Source: Propionicimonas sp. (GTDB lineage Bacteria > Actinomycetota > Actinomycetes > Propionibacteriales > Propionibacteriaceae). Taken from it: a DNA stretch of 64,000 nucleotides. Numbering within the stretch: the first letter of the stretch is position 1; every line of letters begins with the position of its first letter. The notes beneath the pieces were generated by a model that did no database searches, was not told the origin of the DNA, and saw only the letters and a program-made list of their open reading frames with translations. The DNA lies in NCBI RefSeq assembly GCF_029975155.1, contig NZ_JARKPQ010000160.1:37782-101781 (forward strand), read 5' to 3'. Positions 4,305 through 20,109 of this stretch are shown here, piece by piece. The position numbers and the translations under genes were made by a program.

Positions 4305-5471
4305 GTGGCTTTCGTGGGAACTGCGTCCCAGAACTACCTCGCCATCATCAAGGTGGTCGGGGTCGGCGGCGGCGGCGTGAACGCCGTGAACCGGATGATC
4401 GAATCGGGCCTGCGCGGGGTCGAGTTCATCGCGGTGAACACCGACGCCCAGGCACTGTTGATGAGCGACGCCGACGTGAAGCTCGACATCGGCCGCGACC
4501 TCACCCGGGGTCTCGGCGCGGGCGCCGACCCGGCGAAGGGCCAGCAGGCCGCCGAGGACCACGCGGACGAGATCGAGGAGGTGCTCAAGGGCGCCGACAT
4601 GGTCGTCGTCACCGCGGGCGAGGGCGGCGGCACCGGCACCGGTGGCGCGCCCGTCGTGGCCAGGATCGCCCGCTCGCTGGGCGCGCTGACCATCGGCGTG
4701 GTCACCCGTCCGTTCAGCTTCGAGGGACGCCGCCGCGCCACCCAGGCCGAGGACGGCATCGGCACCCTCCGCGAAGAGGTCGACACCCTGATCGTCATCC
4801 CCAACGACAAGCTGCTGGAGATGACCGATCACCACGTGGCGATCCTCGACGCGTTCCGCCAGGCCGACCAGGTGCTGATGCAGGGCGTCTCCGGCATCAC
4901 CGACCTGATCACCACGCCCGGCCTGATCAACCACGACTTCGCCGACGTGAAGGCGGTCATGCAGAACGCCGGGTCGGCCCTGATGGGCATCGGCTCCGCG
5001 CGTGGCGAGGACCGGGCGCGCGCCGCCGCCGAGATGGCGGTCTCCTCCCCGCTGCTGGAGGCCAGCATCGAGGGCGCCCACGGCGTCCTGCTGTCCATCG
5101 CCGGTGGCTCCGATCTCGGCCTGTTCGAGGTCTCCGCCGCGGCGAACCTGATCGAGGCCGCCGCCCACGAGGATGCCAACATCATCTTCGGCACCGTGAT
5201 CGACGACGCGCTCGGCGACGAGGTGCGCGTGACGGTGATCGCCGCCGGCTTCGACGGCGGGCTGCTGCCGCGCAAGGCGCCCGCCCGCCCGGAGGTGCGC
5301 CGTCCCGAGCCGGTCGCGCCGCGTCCCGCCCCGGTGCCGCCGGCACCGGTGGTCGATGAGGAGCCCGACGAGCCCGCTCCCGTCGAGGAGGCTCCCGCCG
5401 AGCCTCGCGTGCGGCCGGTCGCACCGCCGGTCGACGACGACGACCTGGACGTGCCGGACTTCCTGAAGTAG
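4305..5471 (+). CDS. ftsZ: Cell division protein FtsZ
   Basis: [58 protein letters not shown] start chosen for upstream GGAG (ORF track starts at TTG 4206; ATG 4269 also possible). Confidence 0.96.
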
Positions 5472-5485
5472 CCCTTCGGCACACA

Positions 5486-6172
5486 GTGTTCAGTTACCGC
5501 AACGACCCCGGCACCGATGGTGCCGGGGTCGCGTGCTGCGACGCGGTTGCGCCCGACGGCGGGGTGCTCGACCTCCGCGGCGCGGCCGACCGGGCGCTGG
5601 TCGCGGGCGAACTCGGCGTGCCGCTGCTCACCGTCCACCAGGTGCACGGTGATCGGGTGCTCACGGTGGACGCGGCCACCGACCCGGTGGCGCTGGCCGG
5701 CGAGCGGGCCGACGCGCTGGTCACCGCCGTTCGGGGCGTCGCTCTCGCCGTCCGGGTCGCCGACTGCCTGCCGGTCCTGTTCGCCGACGCCGCGGCCGGT
5801 GTGGCCGGCGCGGCCCACGCCGGCCGGGTCGGCCTCGCCGCCGGTGTCCTGCCCGCGACCGTCGCCCGGCTGACCGACCTCGGCGCGACCCGGATCACCG
5901 CCTGGATCGGTCCGCACATCTGCGGCGCCTGCTACGAGGTCCCGGAGTCGCTGCGGGACGAGTTCGCCATCGCCCACCCCGCCGCCGCGGCCACCACGAG
6001 CTGGGGCACACCGTCCCTCGACCTCGGCGCGGCCGCCGAGGCGCAGCTCGGCGCCCTCGGCTGCACGGTCGTCCGCGCCGATCCGTGCACCCGCACCACG
6101 CCCACGCTGCACTCCTACCGCCGCGACGGCGACCGTTCCGGCCGTCAGGCGGGCGTGGTCTGGCTGCCCTGA
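5486..6172 (+). CDS. pgeF: Polyphenol oxidase/purine nucleoside phosphorylase family (YfiH/PgeF, laccase domain)
   Basis: LTVHQVHGDRVL, VRVADCLPVLFAD, GAAHAGRVGLAAGVL, IGPHICGACYEV; downstream of ftsZ. Confidence 0.9.
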   Translation: MFSYRNDPGTDGAGVACCDAVAPDGGVLDLRGAADRALVAGELGVPLLTVHQVHGDRVLTVDAATDPVALAGERADALVTAVRGVALAVRVADCLPVLFADAAAGVAGAAHAGRVGLAAGVLPATVARLTDLGATRITAWIGPHICGACYEVPESLRDEFAIAHPAAAATTSWGTPSLDLGAAAEAQLGALGCTVVRADPCTRTTPTLHSYRRDGDRSGRQAGVVWLP

Positions 6173-6249
6173 CCCGGGCGTGCCTCCGCGATCGGGACAC
6201 GGTGCGCGGTTAGCATCGGTTGGGACTGGTGAGACGTAAGGGGCGAGTG

Positions 6250-6723
6250 ATGGCTGATCGCTTGAAGAAGGCGGCCGTGTGGCTGGGCCTGGTGTCCGAC
6301 AACGACTACGCGGAGACGGAGCCCGGCACCGAGGACGTGACGGAGCAGGTCCTCGAGCGCAGGGACGCCGAGGAGCGCCCCGCGTCCGCGACGGTCACCG
6401 AGCTCGAGACCCGGCGCCCGGCGCGGGAGCACCCGCGCGTCGCCGACATCAACCGGATCATCACCGTGCACCCCCGGACCTACAACGAGGCGCGCACGAT
6501 CGGGGAGAACTTCCGCGACGGCATCCCGGTGATCATGAACCTCGGCGACATGGAGGACGCGGACGCCAAGCGGCTGGTCGACTTCTCCGCCGGCCTGATC
6601 TTTGGACTGCGTGGCAGCATTGAGCGCATCACCAGCAAGGTGTTCCTGCTCTCGCCACACAATGTGACCGTGGCGGCCGAGGACAAGGAACGTCTCGCCG
6701 GGGGCTTCTTCAACCAGTCCTGA
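6250..6723 (+). CDS. sepF: Cell division protein SepF
   Basis: MADRLKKAAVWLGLVSDNDYAE..., RTYNEARTIGENFRDGIPVIMNLGDMEDADAKRLVDFSAGL. Confidence 0.95.
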   Translation: MADRLKKAAVWLGLVSDNDYAETEPGTEDVTEQVLERRDAEERPASATVTELETRRPAREHPRVADINRIITVHPRTYNEARTIGENFRDGIPVIMNLGDMEDADAKRLVDFSAGLIFGLRGSIERITSKVFLLSPHNVTVAAEDKERLAGGFFNQS

Positions 6724-6726
6724 AAG

Positions 6727-7011
6727 GTGGCCGGGATGGGCCTGATCCTCGCCGGAATCCACTGGATCCTGCTCGCATTCCTCGCCCTGCTCACGATCCG
6801 CGCGGTGCTCGCCCTCGTCCCGCTGTTCGCCCGCGACTGGGAGCCGAAGGGCGGCCTGCGCGTGCTGGCCGAGCTCGTGCTGACCCTCACCGATCCGCCG
6901 ATCCGGTTCCTCGGGCGCTTCCTGCCGCCGGTCCGGCTCGGCGGCCTCCAGCTGGACCTCGCTTTCACCGTGGTCTACTTCGCCGTGCTCGTCCTGCTGC
7001 GCTGGATCTGA
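6727..7011 (+). CDS. YggT family membrane protein
   Basis: Small two-TM protein, LTLTDPPIRFLGRFLPPVRLGGLQLDLAF; between sepF and wag31. Confidence 0.9.
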   Translation: MAGMGLILAGIHWILLAFLALLTIRAVLALVPLFARDWEPKGGLRVLAELVLTLTDPPIRFLGRFLPPVRLGGLQLDLAFTVVYFAVLVLLRWI

Positions 7012-7081
7012 GGGCAGCAGGACCCCGGCAGCAATGTCTCCACCTCTGGTTTACCCCTGCGCGACGCGGATCCCCCGGTGC

Positions 7082-12952: not shown

Positions 12953-13136
12953 CGGCTCCTCGAGAGCGTGGAGGCAGGTGAGGTCGTGACGATCGCGCGC
13001 CGGGAAGCCGGTTGCGGATCTGGTGCCGCACCGGCATGCGGACATCGTCTGGGGCACCCTCGGCGGCGGGGTCGAGATCGCAGACGACTTCGATGCGCCC
13101 GACGAGCGGGTCATCGACCTGTTCGATGGCCGATGA
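12953..13136 (+). pseudogene. Phd/YefM-like antitoxin remnant, N-terminus missing and frameshifted
   Basis: Frame 1 from 12953: RLLESVEAGEVVTIARR; another frame from 13005: KPVADLVPHRHADIVWGTLGGGVEIADDFDAPDERVIDLFDGR*; together a Phd-like C-terminus whose stop overlaps the vapC ATG. Confidence 0.7.
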
Positions 13137-13519
13137 CCTCGCTGCTCCTCGACACGCAGGCGCTGCTGTGGCTGCTCAGCGACAGTCGGCGAATGGGTCC
13201 GCGTGCCAGGGCGTTGATCGCGTCGGCCACCAGCGTCCACTACTCGGCCGCATCGGTCTGGGAGATCCTGATCAAGTCCACCCTGGGGAAGCTTCGAATC
13301 GACGGTGACCTCGCGGCGTCGCTCAGGGCCGCGCATCTGCAGGAGCTGCCGATCACTGTTGACCACGCTCTCGCCGTCTCAACGGTGGACCTGCCGCACC
13401 GCGACCCCTTCGACCGGCTGCTGCTCACCCAGGCCGATGCAGAGGGAATGACCTTCCTCACGGCCGACGCGATTCTGCTCGGCACGGGACGCAGCGACGT
13501 CCGCGATGCCCGCGCGTAG
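13133..13519 (+). CDS. VapC-type PIN-domain toxin
   Basis: MTSLLLDTQALLWLLSDSRRMG..., SAASVWEILIKSTLGKL, DPFDRLLLTQADAEGMTFLTADAILL (PIN acidic residues). Confidence 0.88.
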   Translation: MTSLLLDTQALLWLLSDSRRMGPRARALIASATSVHYSAASVWEILIKSTLGKLRIDGDLAASLRAAHLQELPITVDHALAVSTVDLPHRDPFDRLLLTQADAEGMTFLTADAILLGTGRSDVRDARA

Positions 13520-13669
13520 TGTCTTGTCTGCGCACGATGTCTCCCCGGTGGCCGAACCTAGAGCCGAAACGTACCTGGAGGCCCGCGAAGGCAAGGATTG
13601 ACCGCGGAAGCGAGTAGCCAGGCGATTCGGCTGGTAGTGTTTCGTTGAGACTTCGCGGAAAGAAGCATA

Positions 13670-13969
13670 GTGTCGCGTCGAGTGGCGGTCGTCGCCGCCT
13701 CGTTAGGAGCACTTCTGTTTTCCGCGTGCGGCCCGGATTCGAACATCTGGGTGGTCAACAACTCAGACCAGTACCTGTACCTCTACGTGCCGATGACTGA
13801 TGGAGCGTGGCAGAAGCTGACGGAGATGCCGCCGAGGTCACGAGGGCAGCAGAACTTCGTTGTCTCCGCTGGGAAATGCCTCCCCGACGCTTTCATTGCT
13901 GACAAGAATGGGAATGTTCTCAAGCGCATAGAAAAGCTGTGCTGGCACGATACCGTCGCTTTTCCCTGA
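13670..13969 (+). CDS. Small putative lipoprotein
   Basis: GTG start; signal peptide with lipobox LLFSAC; 99 aa; no family recognised. Confidence 0.55.
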   Translation: MSRRVAVVAASLGALLFSACGPDSNIWVVNNSDQYLYLYVPMTDGAWQKLTEMPPRSRGQQNFVVSAGKCLPDAFIADKNGNVLKRIEKLCWHDTVAFP

Positions 13970-14142
13970 AGGCTCTGCACGCTCTTCTTCGTTCGCAGTG
14001 AACTGGCGGCCGGTCGGGTAGGCTAGTCTTCTCGGAATCCTCTATCTTTCTCTTTGGATCCGATGGAGTGGTCTGAACTACTGGAGCCTGGTCGCCAACT
14101 GCGCCGGCCGCCTTCCACCCTGCCCTCGGGTACCACACGACT

Positions 14143-15549
14143 TTGGTCGTTTCGCCGCGGGCGATCGTCCTTCTCGCGGTGACAACGGTTCCCAGTGCCG
14201 CCCAGCCAACTCCTACACCTCGGCCGGTCCCCGGACGCGACGACGTGGTAGCTACGCGGGGTTGGACGCGTCCGGTACCCGGCCCGAACCTGTTGGGGAA
14301 GGCAGAGCACGACACCACGGGCCCATCTGGGGCACCAGAGGTTCCTGAAGGACTGAGTCGTCCCGTTGAGCGTTTGCTGTCGGATGCCCGCTCGGGGAAG
14401 ATCTCCCGCGATCAGGCGCACGAGTTCGCCGTCGGGGCCTCAGTGGGAAGCCAGGGGATCCCAGTTCGCTACAGAGTGAAGACGCCCACGCGACTCGATC
14501 TGCAGGTGCTTGCGCTCACGGGTGCTCACTATCAGATCTCCGACGAGTCCGATGAGATCGCTCCGTCTCACCGGGCTGGCCCGCCCAGCTTCGCATGCCA
14601 AGTGAGTGGGTGGTGTGAACTCACCGGGCGTCACACGGCTGTTCTGTGGCCAGCGTCCGACTGGACGCAGGACGAGCAGCTTGACGTCGACCCTGCCGAC
14701 GGACGGCCCGACCACTACGCGAAGCTTATAGATCGCGCAGATCAGGCTTGGGATTATTTCAAGGACGATCTCGGCATGGAGGTGCTCGACCCGATCGTTT
14801 GGCACATGGGAGCGATGCCAGGCGGGACGATCAACTGTCCAGCCCACATCATTGCCGGCTCGGTGGAGTATCTGGCTATCCACGAGACTTTCCATCAGTT
14901 CCAGTGGACGTACCTCACAACCGCTGTCAATTCGGTACACTTCTTGGCCAACTACTTTAGCTTGAGTTGGTGGATTGAGGCTTCGGCGAGCTGGGCCACG
15001 AAATAGTTCGCAGTGGACGTCCTGGATCCGCAGCGAGTCGCTGCGAATCAACATCCAACCGGCGCTACGGAAAACATTGCTGAGGCGGCCCACATCCCAG
15101 AATTCCTGAACGGCGCAGGGCTGCCGCTTGATGACGACGATCCCGCCAACGAGCGACAGTACGGAGCCGTGGTGGTGGCGGAGTTCATGTCGCAGTACAC
15201 AGACGATCGCGACTTCGTGAAGAAGTCCTCCGTCTACCTGGAGGGCGACGAGTACCTCGACGGACTTGAGCAGATCGTGGGGACACTGGAGAACGAGGGC
15301 TACTGGCCGGCGTGGGCCCTAGCGGACATGTGGACATCGCTGTACCGGCTGTGCGACGACTCAGGCGACTCGTTCAACTCGATGCGGCTGCGCACGACCA
15401 GGGAGATGAGCGTGACGTTGCCGCTGGAGATGGCCGACCGGGCGGTGGAGGCGTGGATGCGTGAAGAGGTCGTGCCAGCCTGCGATCGGTTCGCCGCGGA
15501 ACCCATCCCGGGCTGTCTCGTCCGACGAGGCCTACCGCCAGCTGGGTGA
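14143..15549 (+). pseudogene. Secreted metallopeptidase-like protein interrupted by one in-frame TAG (15004-15006)
   Basis: ORFs 14143-15006 and 15013-15549 share a frame, separated only by TAG plus two codons before a GTG; IHETFHQFQW (HExxH) then WWIEASASWATK; TTG start uncertain. Confidence 0.6.
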
Positions 15550-15705
15550 GGTCACCGGGAGGTGATCACCCACTTCCGGAAATGCGTCGCGGTCGCCATC
15601 GTCGTGGGCTCGATCCGCTGGCGGTCGCTGCTCTCTCGTGTCTGCGCCGTCGGGGTCAAGTTGGTCGGCCCGCGCGGGTTCGCGCGGGCATCTGGTTGGG
15701 GCACC

Positions 15706-16362
15706 CTAGAGCAGGTGGAGTTCGCCGGCCCGTAGGGCCAGGGTGACGCGGTTGGTTGCGTCGAGCTTCTTGGTGAGGATTCCGATGTGGTACTTGACCG
15801 TGGCTTCGGACAGGTAGACCTGCTCGGCGATCCTCTTGTTGGTCAGCCCTTCAGCGAGCAGCTTGAGGATCCGGCTCTCGGTCTCGGTCAGTCTTGGGGC
15901 GTCTTCAGGTCGCAGCGGGGCGGTCAGCCGGTCGCGGACCTTGGGTGTGAGCACCGAGAGGCCGGAGCGGGCTGCTCGGATGGCGTCGGCGACGGCGTCG
16001 TGTGAGGTGTCCTTGTACAGGAAGCCGAGGGCGCCGGCGCAGTGCATGTCGGAGACGGTTTCCTGGCTGGTCAGTGAGGTGAGGGCGAGAACTCGAACTG
16101 AGGGTACTTGCTCGCGGATCAGCGCGGTCAGCTCGGCACCGCTCATGCCTGGCATTGCGACGTCGACCAGCATGACGTCGGGCGGGTCGGCGCGTGCGGC
16201 TTCGAGGGCTTCGGCGCCGTGCTGGTAGGTGTTGGTGATGTGCAGGTCGGGGTAGGCGTCGAGCAGTTTGGCCAGCGCGGTCCGGACGTACATGTCGTCG
16301 TCCACGATCACGACTTTGATGACTGCTGTGCTCCCAGTGGGATTCTGGCGCGGGTCATCCAT
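15706..16362 (-). CDS. NarL/LuxR-family response regulator
   Basis: VIKVVIVDDDMYVRTALAKLL..., DVMLVDVAMPGMSG receiver; LTETESRILKLLAEGLTNKRIAEQVYLSEATVKYHIGILTKKL HTH. Confidence 0.93.
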   Translation of the reverse strand: MDDPRQNPTGSTAVIKVVIVDDDMYVRTALAKLLDAYPDLHITNTYQHGAEALEAARADPPDVMLVDVAMPGMSGAELTALIREQVPSVRVLALTSLTSQETVSDMHCAGALGFLYKDTSHDAVADAIRAARSGLSVLTPKVRDRLTAPLRPEDAPRLTETESRILKLLAEGLTNKRIAEQVYLSEATVKYHIGILTKKLDATNRVTLALRAGELHLL

Positions 16363-17432
16363 CGCTTGTCCTCCTGCAGCGTGTTGAGTTCGCCGCCGAT
16401 CGGGGTGAGACGTTCGCGGACCCCGAGTAGTCCCATTGCGGAGTCGCCGGAGCCTGTCCGGGTTCCGCCGGGTGCCACGGTGTCGTTGATGAAGACCATA
16501 TCGACCGAGTGGTGGTCGATGCTGAGGATTAGCGCGCAGGGGCCGGACTTGCTGGCGTGCCGTTCGATGTTGGAGGTGGCCTCGCCGACCACGACTTTGA
16601 TGGTGGGCCACAGTTCGGGAGGGATCGTGTCAGGGTCGCCTTCGATGGTGAGTGCGACGCTGAATCTGATTGCTTCGAGGGCTTTGGCGGCCTCGCGGAG
16701 GACGTCGCCGGGCGAGCCGGCTTCGTCGGCCTGGCCGGGGGTTTCGGGTTGCGGGTCGCGCAGGAGGTTCATCAGTAGGCGAAGCTGCGCGAGTGCGGCC
16801 TGGATCTCGCCCACGACCGCGTTCATCTCGGAGGGGTCCAGGCTCTGTTGGGTGACCTGTGCGCGGAGAGCGGCGCGGGACAGGTCTCTGGCGACGGTGT
16901 CGTGAAGATCCCGGGCCAGAGATAGCCGCTGCTGGACCAGGGCGGCCGCTTGTGCCTCGGATTGGGCGTGGCGGAATGCGGCGAAGGCGTTGCCGATCAG
17001 CCACAGGACTGCGATCAAGGCCGCCCACACGACACCGCCGAGAAGGAATCGGGCGCTGCCGGGGTAGTCCTGGTACTGCAGGGCCACCAGGATCAGGCCG
17101 TAGCATGCGGTCATCCAGCGGCGCGCCAGCCTCAGGTTCCGCATCCCGGTGCCGAGGATCGGGATGAGCGTCGCGTACTGGCCCAGGGAAACCGAACCTG
17201 TTGGTACGAGGAAGTAGCCGACCAGCAGCAAGCCGAGCGCCACACCGGCGATCTTGGGCCAACGGACCGTGCAGCCGGCAGCCACACACATGGCGATATC
17301 GAGGGCCAGCGCCCAGGGCTGGCTGACCTGCAGACCGAGGGCAAGGCTCAGCACGGCGAGCATCGCCGCCAGGAAGACGTCCAGACCGCCGCCGAGCAAC
17401 AGCTTGGGGACGGATCGGAGCTGCTGGTCCAT
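16308..17432 (-). CDS. Sensor histidine kinase (HisKA_3 type, multi-TM N-terminus)
   Basis: LSLARDLHDTVARDLSRAALRAQ dimerisation/phosphoacceptor box; C-terminal ATPase region; multi-TM N-terminal half; overlaps regulator start. Confidence 0.9.
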   Translation of the reverse strand: MDQQLRSVPKLLLGGGLDVFLAAMLAVLSLALGLQVSQPWALALDIAMCVAAGCTVRWPKIAGVALGLLLVGYFLVPTGSVSLGQYATLIPILGTGMRNLRLARRWMTACYGLILVALQYQDYPGSARFLLGGVVWAALIAVLWLIGNAFAAFRHAQSEAQAAALVQQRLSLARDLHDTVARDLSRAALRAQVTQQSLDPSEMNAVVGEIQAALAQLRLLMNLLRDPQPETPGQADEAGSPGDVLREAAKALEAIRFSVALTIEGDPDTIPPELWPTIKVVVGEATSNIERHASKSGPCALILSIDHHSVDMVFINDTVAPGGTRTGSGDSAMGLLGVRERLTPIGGELNTLQEDKRWMTRARIPLGAQQSSKS

Positions 17433-17596
17433 GCCACCTCTCTGGTTCGGCCAAGACGACAGACTAGCCAGATGGGTGAACCGCGGGGCCGTTTCGCCTA
17501 TCCGACTGGGTGGATCTTCCCAATAGCCCTCACCCGAGTGGCTGGCTCTGCTCTGTCGGCATTCCGCGACGACGGGGCCGGTGGGACTCTCTGTCC

Positions 17597-17770
17597 ATGA
17601 AACAAGTACGCAGGCATGCGAGCCGGCTCCTCGCGGCCCAAATGCTCGGCATCGCGGCCGTCATCCCGATCGCGGCAACAACGGTGGCCAGCGTGAGCCC
17701 GCCCACTGCACAGAGCATCTGCGACGTCCTCCCGCTGTTTCCAGGCTGCCCCGCCAGACCCAAAGCCTGA
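17597..17770 (+). CDS. Small secreted peptide (57 aa) with two cysteines
   Basis: MKQVRRHASRLLAAQMLGIAAVIPIAATTVASVSPPTAQSICDVLPLFPGCPARPKA: signal peptide, short tail with C-x8-C; divergent from histidine kinase. Confidence 0.5.
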   Translation: MKQVRRHASRLLAAQMLGIAAVIPIAATTVASVSPPTAQSICDVLPLFPGCPARPKA

Positions 17771-18013
17771 TGCTCGCACCCGACCGCCTTCCAGGGCTGA
17801 TCTGTCAGCCGGATTGTGTTCGATGGAGTCGATGGTCTTGATGAGGGGTGTTTGCGCCTCGGCGCTCGGCCTGCGAAGCCTCCTCGGGAAGCTGGTGCCT
17901 TATCAAGCCAGCCACTCGGTAAACGGGCGCCCGGAGAACGGGAACCAGGGAGTAGCGTCCTCTTCGGGGCATGGACCTGGCGGCCCCAGAAGTATCGACG
18001 AACGGAGTTGACG

Positions 18014-18181
18014 ATGAAACCGGTGACCATCGCACTTACCCTCAGTGCGGCCATTTGTGCAACTCTCCTGTTGTTCCATGTTGCAGAAAACTTGGCAGTG
18101 CTGTGGTGGGCAGTGATACTTGCTAACGCGACTTGGGTCATTGTAGGAGTGGTCAGGAAGGGTCAAGATTCCGACCAATAG
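18014..18181 (+). CDS. Small two-TM membrane peptide (55 aa)
   Basis: GGAG at good spacing before ATG; MKPVTIALTLSAAICATLLLFHVAENLAVLWWAVILANATWVIVGVVRKGQDSDQ. Confidence 0.55.
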   Translation: MKPVTIALTLSAAICATLLLFHVAENLAVLWWAVILANATWVIVGVVRKGQDSDQ

Positions 18182-18218
18182 TCAGCGGAAGAACGCCAAT
18201 CAACAAAGGAGTTGTGGA

Positions 18219-18932
18219 ATGAGAAAGACAATGCTTGCGGCCATCGGAGTGGCAGTGTCGCTGAGTCTGGCGGTAGTTACGGCGCAACCCACCGCAGCAC
18301 ACCCGCGACTACCTGCCTCACCCATGTCACGGATCGACGTACGCAGCGCTGCGGTGGATCTTCAGAAGAAGGTCGAGCAGAGGGACTCGCGGCAGCACTT
18401 GCGGCGCTCTGAAGCGGTACGAACTCTCAAGGCAGCGTATCCACGCCTGGCGCTTTCTGGCTTCGGCGAGGTCGCAATCAATCAGGCGACTGGCTACCTA
18501 GATCACAGCACTCGGATCATCAGCGCCCCGGTTGTAGGTGGCAACCTAATGCTTGGATCAAATGTCACGGTGTTCGTCGGTCCCGATGGCAACTTGATCG
18601 ACTCCTACGAGATACTATTTGTGCCAATGGATGAAAATTCAGGCCGCACGGTAATCTGGCGTGCCGGCACAATAGTCTTCGACAAGGTGACGACCAACGA
18701 TGGGTCAGTGTTGGATCCTACTGACCCGGTCAATGTTGGTTTCAGCCTTTCCAAGTTCAACAAGTGTCTTGCCAGTCAGGGGATCGCGGCTTGGGTCGTT
18801 ACTGCGATCACAGCAGCTTGCAGTGTTGCATGCGCTGCCACGGTGGGGACCGGATGCGCCGTTTGCATCATCGCCCTAGCGCTCGTAGCTGGCCCGACCC
18901 TCGCGCTGTGCTTAGGGCGTGCGCAACAGTAG
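18219..18932 (+). CDS. Secreted protein with C-terminal hydrophobic six-Cys domain; candidate immunity/bacteriocin fusion precursor (halocin-C8-like)
   Basis: AAAGGAG RBS; signal peptide (ATAHP-like cleavage region); tail KCLASQGIAAWVVTAITAACSVACAATVGTGCAVCIIALALVAGPTLALCLGRAQQ (C-x17-C-x3-C-x7-C-x2-C-x14-C). Confidence 0.6.
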   Translation: MRKTMLAAIGVAVSLSLAVVTAQPTAAHPRLPASPMSRIDVRSAAVDLQKKVEQRDSRQHLRRSEAVRTLKAAYPRLALSGFGEVAINQATGYLDHSTRIISAPVVGGNLMLGSNVTVFVGPDGNLIDSYEILFVPMDENSGRTVIWRAGTIVFDKVTTNDGSVLDPTDPVNVGFSLSKFNKCLASQGIAAWVVTAITAACSVACAATVGTGCAVCIIALALVAGPTLALCLGRAQQ

Positions 18933-18951
18933 CTGGGCCAAAGCGGCCACA

Positions 18952-19611
18952 ATGAAAGAGGAGCGTGCGAAGGTCGTCGCGTACGTGTCGGCCCTCGCCG
19001 TTCTCCTTAGTGGGTGCGCGCACTCTGGGGCTGAACAGCCGCAGGTACCGTTGCCACGCGCTTCTCAACGCATCGCGAACGAGTGCCCGGAGGGTCTGCC
19101 CGACAGGGTGGCCCAGATGGTTGCAGCGGAGGGACTGCGTTCTAGCGGCGTTTTTGCCAGCGACAACGTGATCTTGGCAACTGCACACGGCGTCTCTAGC
19201 GCCGCCATCGTCGACGTCTCTGGGGGTCGCATCCACGCACGCGTCGTGATGCGCGATGAGTCGTTGGATTATTCGATCCTGGTTACAGCCGACCGGCTGC
19301 CTCGCGCAGGCCGAGTTCGGATCCAAGGGACAAGCCTCACCGTGGATGAACCCGTGGTGGCCGTCATGGCCGGGTCGGGCACTGCCGAGTGTGTCCCTGG
19401 GGTCGTGCTGGAGAGCCTCCCCAACCGAGTGCGAACCTCCGTGCCAGTTCAGTCTGGCGAGTCAGGATCGCCGGTGTTTGACCGCACCGGAGCGCTTGTC
19501 GGGATCATCCTCGCCCGAGGAGAAGGAAATCAAGGTTCCGTACTACTTCCTGCCGCGCGGTTCGCGAAGCAACTTCTGGACGCGGTGAGGACACATGCCG
19601 CGGACGCCTGA
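18952..19611 (+). CDS. Trypsin/chymotrypsin-fold serine protease-like lipoprotein
   Basis: Lipobox LLSGC; triad-like ILATAHGV (His), ESLDYSILV (Asp), SGESGSPVFDRTGALVGIILAR (Ser); ORF track start GTG 18919 overlaps upstream gene. Confidence 0.72.
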   Translation: MKEERAKVVAYVSALAVLLSGCAHSGAEQPQVPLPRASQRIANECPEGLPDRVAQMVAAEGLRSSGVFASDNVILATAHGVSSAAIVDVSGGRIHARVVMRDESLDYSILVTADRLPRAGRVRIQGTSLTVDEPVVAVMAGSGTAECVPGVVLESLPNRVRTSVPVQSGESGSPVFDRTGALVGIILARGEGNQGSVLLPAARFAKQLLDAVRTHAADA

Positions 19612-19881
19612 TGCTGAGCTCTTCGAACACACGGCCGGCTGGCTCGCCAATCACGCCATCGGACAGGACACGCCCTCAGCTTCACCGTGGCCATCGGTGT
19701 CCTCGCCACCATCGCCGCCGCCATCACCGCGATCCCGCCCGTCATCTACGCGACTGGACCCCGTCACTGTCATGCGCACACCCTGGATGTCCCTCGGCTG
19801 ATCATCCTGGCGGCGTTAACGTTCGTCCTCATGGCGATCGACTCAGGTCTTCACCGATCACGCTCGCGATGGCGAAGCTAA
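19595..19881 (+). pseudogene. Small membrane protein, apparently frameshifted
   Basis: ATG 19595 frame MPRTPDAELFEHTAGWLANHAIGQDT then loses sense; next frame continues ALSFTVAIGVLATIAAAITAIPPVIYATG...LIILAALTFVLMAIDSG to 19881. Confidence 0.4.
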
Positions 19882-20026
19882 CGTCCGCGGCGGGTGGCAT
19901 TAGCAGGCGGGCCGCGCGTATGTAGCCCGGAGTCGAAGTGGACGGGTGTAATGCCTAGTCAGCGAGGGGCCGCGGCTTCGCGCGCGGAGGGCGGGGTGGG
20001 AAGAGGAATCTTCGCGTCAGACCCAG

Positions 20027-20109
20027 TACCGGGAAGGGGAGTCGAACCCCTACGCCCTTTCGGGCAGACGGGTTTGAGCCGTCCGCGTATACCATTCCGC
20101 CACCCCGGC
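20027..20109 (-). tRNA. tRNA-Leu (anticodon CAA)
   Basis: Reverse complement GCCGGGGTGGCGGAATGGTATACGCGGACGGCTCAAACCCGTCTGCCCGAAAGGGCGTAGGGGTTCGACTCCCCTTCCCGGTA: acceptor stem, long variable arm, CTCAAAC loop, TTCGA T-arm; CCA not encoded. Confidence 0.95.

Follow-up and report, generated by a model that had tools for sequence, protein, structure and literature searches.

Does the run of genes beside a tRNA-Leu gene in a 64-kb stretch of Propionicimonas sp. DNA (the window, to which all positions below refer) form one bacteriocin cassette, or does it consist of separate units? The first-pass annotation had placed a response regulator (RR), a histidine kinase (HK), a 57-aa secreted peptide with two Cys, a 55-aa membrane peptide, a 237-aa secreted protein with a Cys-rich tail, and a trypsin-like protease at 15706-19611 and had read them as one functional unit. 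All six genes are present at the places given, with small coordinate corrections. Comparison with other loci (L-numbers) and with the genomes of relatives (G-numbers) indicates that the locus is two evolutionary units and not one, namely RR, HK, and 57-aa peptide on the one hand and the pair of 55-aa and 237-aa genes on the other, because the HK/RR/57-aa set recurs without the rest and the tail pair recurs without HK/RR or protease; the former is one of the findings that the first-pass annotation itself had named as refuting its reading. A precursor, its membrane partner, and a dedicated two-component system are thus retained from the proposed cassette, while the assignment of all genes to one unit is not. 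In our judgment, the tRNA-Leu island probably holds two modules, a three-component peptide-pheromone switch and a precursor/immunity cargo.

The RR gene (15706-16362, minus strand; its start codon is uncertain and it overlaps the end of the HK gene) encodes a NarL/LuxR-type regulator with PF00072 (E 9e-22) and GerE (E 3e-16) domains. The HK gene (16308-17432, minus strand) is recognized by its HisKA_3 domain (E 5e-7) and by homologs in relatives; an N-box (EATSNIERH) is visible and the sensor part consists of transmembrane helices only. Homologs of the kinase are found in 16 of the 30 genus genomes and, by profile search, in 44 of 128 family genomes (10 of 29 genera). On the plus strand, the gene for the 57-aa secreted peptide, a candidate pheromone precursor, lies at 17597-17770. 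The peptide has a signal-like helix, ends in CDVLPLFPGC (17720-17749, plus strand), which corresponds to the loop motif C-x3-P-x2-P-x-C, and found no match in an NCBIfam scan. Its gene is under purifying selection, with a nonsynonymous divergence (dN) of 0.21 and a synonymous divergence (dS) of 0.64 from the L057 ortholog. L057, in genome G870, is the nearest ortholog unit and shares 77% DNA identity with the window over exactly 15705-17771, that is, over the RR (74% identity), the HK, and the 57-aa peptide; the similarity ends at the end of the peptide gene, with none beyond.

The peptide ending was seen first as C-[DETQ]-x-x-P-x-[WFL]-P-G-C in divergent small secreted peptides of five genus loci and then in most others. 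It was loosened to C-x3-P-x2-P-x-C, a form that at that stage already stood beside kinases of three other genera, and was then tested on 40 newly fetched loci, nearly all from other genera. The motif, derived mainly in one genus, holds in other genera. In 618 kb around 62 kinase loci, 29 open frames combine this ending with a hydrophobic segment, and all of them lie beside the kinase or directly after the RR. They come from seven genera and show three arrangements: divergent, co-oriented upstream, and behind the RR. Ten shuffles gave one hit in total (about 0.1 expected per shuffle), and there was none in 299 kb of natural control sequence or in the remainder of the window. Variants outside the length filters occur in L057 and L068, and a P-to-S variant in L140. 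A DNA pattern search by the loop motif alone gave forward matches that clearly exceed the reversed control; its hits were mostly due to chance and only those beside kinases were peptide-like. The first-pass annotation had counted the peptide among the bacteriocin genes. It accompanies HK/RR elsewhere without the other genes, and we favour reading it as the signal of that two-component system rather than as a member of the toxin set.

A motif search in 21 upstream regions yielded the palindrome TGNCC-RNNY-GGNCA, which we take as the predicted site of the regulator. Three copies lie before the 57-aa gene, at 17463-17480 (ACTAGCCAGATGGGTGAA, the highest score in the window), at 17497-17514 (34 bp from the first), and at 17529-17546 (32 bp from the second). 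Centre spacings in such arrays are 21-22 or 31-34 bp, equal to two or three helical turns. Phased palindrome pairs precede the peptide genes at kinase loci and are absent from 1.1 Mb of shuffled sequence. Since the site matrix was trained on upstream regions of peptide genes, the scores of those regions are partly circular, and the independent evidence comes from arrays outside the training set.

Two such arrays are found in L057, each before candidate effector genes. The first precedes the gene for a 52-aa Cys-rich peptide (MSLLKSIARQVFGVQTARAGCPTDCW...; minus strand, about 6024-5866); behind it lie MauE-like, ABC exporter, S26 peptidase-like, and LolD-like genes, and the set may be a new bacteriocin operon. 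The second precedes genes for a 131-aa secreted protein and for a large membrane protein of 886 aa, which has no Pfam match and is taken for an FtsX-like permease. In L063 and L068, the loop peptide gene is followed by genes for a secreted 700-aa protein and an RHS/YD-repeat protein of polymorphic-toxin type (this toxin-like pair directly after the peptide occupies 4881-7022 and 1-5014 in L063 and 4855-6960 and 1-4845 in L068), and five further switch loci (L034, L035, L065, L066, and L067) adjoin genes judged by eye to be of Tad/Flp-pilus type. As bacteriocin-like, RHS, and Tad-type neighbours occur at different loci, the neighbours of the switch are exchangeable, and several are antibacterial in type. 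The first-pass reading of a dedicated two-component system is supported in so far as systems of this type adjoin bacteriocin-like and toxin-like genes elsewhere. In the five loci with Tad/Flp-type neighbours, a second array lies upstream of a conserved small protein of ~100 aa. Phased arrays at L032 2408-2457 and L063 9433-9481 precede a conserved Cys protein of 53 aa that looks intracellular (MATKCSPYHSTDP...CGGCRRLD).

The small peptide, predicted to be exported, is genetically linked to an HK and an RR across species, one of the marks of a pheromone system. Whether these loci amount to an undescribed three-component pheromone family of Actinomycetota, spanning at least seven genera and defined by Sec-exported disulfide-loop precursors, HisKA_3 kinases, NarL-type RRs, phased palindromes, and exchangeable antibacterial cargo, is in our view evenly balanced. 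Alternatively, the 57-aa loop peptide could itself be an antimicrobial or cell-envelope effector, induced by an HK/RR that acts as a LiaRS-like envelope-stress system without any pheromone. This would suit the transmembrane-only sensor, the weak matches of the kinase to LiaS, MctS, and similar models, the small size and frequent Trp richness of the loop peptides, and the arrays, which make the peptide a probable target of the regulator. However, most loci have no immunity or export gene beside the peptide, which keeps to the kinase through changes in gene order as is expected of a ligand-receptor pair, and in three of the four pairs compared, though not in window/L057, constraint on the loop exceeds that on the leader. 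We therefore consider an effector role of the loop peptide rather unlikely and retain the reading as a pheromone.

The second unit starts with the 55-aa two-helix membrane peptide (18014-18181, plus strand), a candidate immunity protein, and continues with the 237-aa secreted protein (18219-18932, plus strand), which has a signal peptide and a Cys-rich hydrophobic tail and is a candidate bacteriocin precursor. Its tail Cys are residues 183, 201, 205, 213, 216, and 231. Over Cys183-Cys231 (18765-18911, plus strand), the six Cys, Leu184, Trp192, Thr208, and Gly210 are invariant in seven relatives from two phyla. Relatives are found in Streptomyces (L003, L012, and L013; 28% identity) and, among the Bacillota, on plasmids of Terribacillus, Bacillus pumilus, B. 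velezensis, and Levilactobacillus brevis; 21 SPbeta-like viral contigs in IMG/VR (L175-L195; Bacillus prophages) also carry the gene. Profile comparison joins the actinobacterial and Bacillaceae tail groups (probability 98.4, E 8e-15), and a single pairwise comparison joins the L. brevis and window tail proteins (E 2e-12). The prophage protein matches phrog_33667 over its full length, and this family reaches the window tail at E 0.007. For the Cys-tail protein and its relatives, no curated family was found above cut-off. Other, loose hits (L008-L011) were set aside as weak and partial, with L009 and L011 looking spurious on reading, and five tail proteins had diverged too far for their profile to be used in a scan of the collection. 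A degraded copy with an internal deletion and a stop lies at L014 6001-6462 in Streptomyces sp. NBC_01214.

A two-helix peptide of 54-61 aa with a basic end adjoins the tail gene, standing before it in Streptomyces, the window, and L. brevis and after it in Terribacillus and B. velezensis. Because this peptide accompanies the tail gene across Streptomyces and Bacillota, the comparison supports the reading of the gene pair as bacteriocin precursor and immunity peptide, and the earlier proposal of a secreted precursor with a small membrane partner is strengthened by the conservation of the pair elsewhere. The distribution points to a small bacteriocin-immunity family in Streptomyces, the family of the window, Bacillus prophages, and Lactobacillaceae. 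The 55-aa peptide also gave a hit to MauE (E 0.004, below cut-off), which was rejected as a compositional match between helices. In the SPbeta-like contigs L175 and L189, a 54-aa two-helix peptide begins right behind the stop codon of the tail gene. On the L. brevis plasmid, a thioredoxin-family gene (L174 2708-3124) lies behind the tail gene, which fits a disulfide-rich product.

The Cys-tail protein might instead be a surface or signalling protein whose tail serves as a membrane anchor. Such a role would be compatible with the missing family assignment and the missing fold match: the AlphaFold2 model of the window protein is poor, with a predicted local distance difference test score (pLDDT) of 38, and the better model of the Bacillus homolog (mean pLDDT 61), which shows helices and a beta sheet as well as three helices in the tail, gave no PDB match below E 0.4 that would identify the fold of the N-terminal domain. 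Against a mere anchor speak the conserved company of a very small two-helix partner on plasmids and SPbeta-like prophages, where bacteriocins are common, the six invariant Cys with Gly/Ala-rich helices, and weak matches to TIGR04450, a model of immunity/bacteriocin fusions (E 0.05 and 1.8). We thus regard the anchor role as doubtful and continue to read the protein as a candidate bacteriocin precursor.

The protease gene (18952-19611, plus strand) encodes a Trypsin_2 lipoprotein (E 1.4e-10) with a lipobox (LLSGC) and H, D, and GESGSP motifs. No relative was found among 149 genomes of the order, its relatives being distant and HtrA-like only, and the protease is never a neighbour of tail-protein relatives in the neighbourhoods seen. 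There, the tail gene and the membrane peptide stand without adjacent HK/RR or protease, so that kinase and protease were ruled out as conserved partners of the tail gene. The protease may process the precursor; for this role, proposed in the first-pass annotation, adjacency is the only basis.

How, then, do the two units relate to each other? At 17906-17919, ~95 bp before the 55-aa gene, 14 bp of palindrome 3 recur as an exact inverted copy, whereas the best of 516 other 244-bp windows reaches only 12. With this copy and without a second array, co-regulation of the 55-aa and 237-aa genes with the switch is plausible. A shared operator before peptide and effector genes is seen in L057, whereas the window has an array at the peptide gene and a partial site at the cargo. 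Several observations weigh against the proposed pair of modules. The 55-aa, 237-aa, and protease genes have no phased array upstream, only the one partial site, and transcription of the peptide gene may stop at a weak terminator-like hairpin at 17795, of a kind whose number is within chance. None of the other 29 genus genomes carries the tail gene, whose link to the switch is therefore recent or accidental. Furthermore, a loop peptide is missing at about half of the kinase loci, and several peptide modules adjoin Tad-pilus or unrelated genes. That the genes at 15706-19611 are one co-selected bacteriocin operon system, as first annotated, is improbable, since adjacency, the single direction of the four right-hand genes, their common island, the 14-bp site copy, and the analogous cargo in L057, L063, and L068 are set against the many genomes with HK/RR/peptide but none of the other genes, the tail pairs of Streptomyces and Bacillota, which have neither HK/RR nor the protease beside them, and the end of DNA similarity to L057 at the peptide gene.

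For the two modules, we propose the following mechanism. The 57-aa precursor would be exported by means of its signal-like helix, and its C-terminal ten residues would form a Cys-Cys loop with two prolines. This loop peptide would be sensed by the membrane-embedded kinase, as their gene linkage suggests, and the RR would bind the phased palindromes upstream of the peptide gene, leading to positive feedback and switching on nearby competition genes. In the cargo, the Cys-rich hydrophobic tail is likely the killing peptide, presumably freed by proteolysis from the N-terminal domain, for which the trypsin-like lipoprotein next to it may be used here, and the 55-aa two-helix peptide would provide self-protection.

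Both units lie in an accessory island (13519-20025) at tRNA-Leu(caa) (20026-20109, minus strand), whose adjacency had been noted correctly. Alignment with the relative G873 breaks off after window position 13518 and resumes at the tRNA-Leu gene at 20026; between these points G873 has about 750 bp and the window 6.5 kb, and other genus members have unmatched sequence of differing lengths at the same spot. The 15706-19611 locus is thus an insertion at a variable tRNA-Leu spot, which explains its tRNA neighbour and the lower GC content (57-67% for the island versus ~70%). Assembly contamination is 8%, but on both flanks of the locus this contig runs collinear with relatives from the genus. The left edge of the island is marked by a PIN-domain gene (13130-13519), which is kept with its neighbours in G873. 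A single frame at 14143-15549 (287 + 178 codons) with an in-frame TAG at ~15004 encodes HETFH, a zinc-peptidase-like motif, and is likely a pseudogene inside the island. The "damaged small membrane protein" reported at ~19611-19881 is a 64-aa open frame without a family match and was not confirmed as a gene.

Most examples of peptide quorum sensing come from Firmicutes. The linkage of peptide, kinase, regulator, and operator provides an immediately testable candidate for peptide signalling in another phylum, and the regulon of the switch can be predicted from the operator motif. For actinobacteria, one review names only gamma-butyrolactones (PMC13220807). In searches of the open-access literature, with subscription papers outside their scope, neither the loop-peptide switch nor the Cys-tail pair was found described, and both appear to be new.

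Like the ComCDE, Blp, and Pln systems of Firmicutes, the switch encodes a candidate inducing peptide, a membrane kinase, and an RR together, and in those systems a repeated operator precedes the peptide and bacteriocin genes. A well-studied three-component case is the regulation of gallocin by GSP-BlpHR, which uses a 30-bp operator (PMC8545106). The window switch differs in its HisKA_3 kinase and NarL/LuxR regulator, where BlpR has a LytTR domain, and in its peptide, which has a Sec-type signal-like helix and the C-x3-P-x2-P-x-C loop in place of a double-glycine leader and ABC export; it also belongs to Actinomycetota. Assignment to the ComCDE/Blp subtype (double-glycine leader, HPK10-type kinase, LytTR) was rejected, as HisKA_3 and GerE were found and no double-glycine leader precedes the loop. 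In agr-type systems, a short cyclic C-terminal autoinducing peptide is sensed by a polytopic kinase. The proposed peptide and the kinase of the window resemble this arrangement, but the ring would be a disulfide, kinase and regulator come from other families, and no AgrB-like cyclase was seen among the genes listed.

For the cargo, the closest likeness is to halocin C8 (HalC8) and the families TIGR04449 and TIGR04450, since the window precursor is secreted and joins an N-terminal domain to a Cys-rich hydrophobic C-terminal peptide whose release by cleavage is proposed. In HalC8, the C-terminal fragment is released by cleavage, the responsible protease being unidentified (PMC12893001). Alignment of the seven relatives gives the TIGR04450 architecture, a secreted N-terminal domain followed by a Cys-rich hydrophobic peptide. 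Membership was rejected: at the cut-off of 27 bits the window protein has no match, the best relative (L003) reaches 13.2 bits (E 0.05) in the right register, and a TIGR04450 search in its own class found none above cut-off. For TIGR04449, the halocin C8 domain, there was no NCBIfam match to the window protein or its relatives and none above cut-off in its own genome. The window protein also differs from HalC8 and TIGR04450 in its six invariant tail Cys and in its separate two-helix partner, which is conserved with the tail gene where the TIGR04450 family has an N-terminal immunity domain. In the SdpC/SDP system of Bacillus subtilis, a secreted proprotein carries the killing peptide at its C-terminus, which is hydrophobic and contains Cys, and immunity comes from a membrane protein. 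The window protein has no match to SdpC models, SdpA/SdpB-like genes were not seen, and the partner is a peptide of only 54-61 aa. What the two share is the overall plan, a secreted proprotein with a hydrophobic Cys-containing C-terminus and, beside it, a candidate membrane immunity partner.

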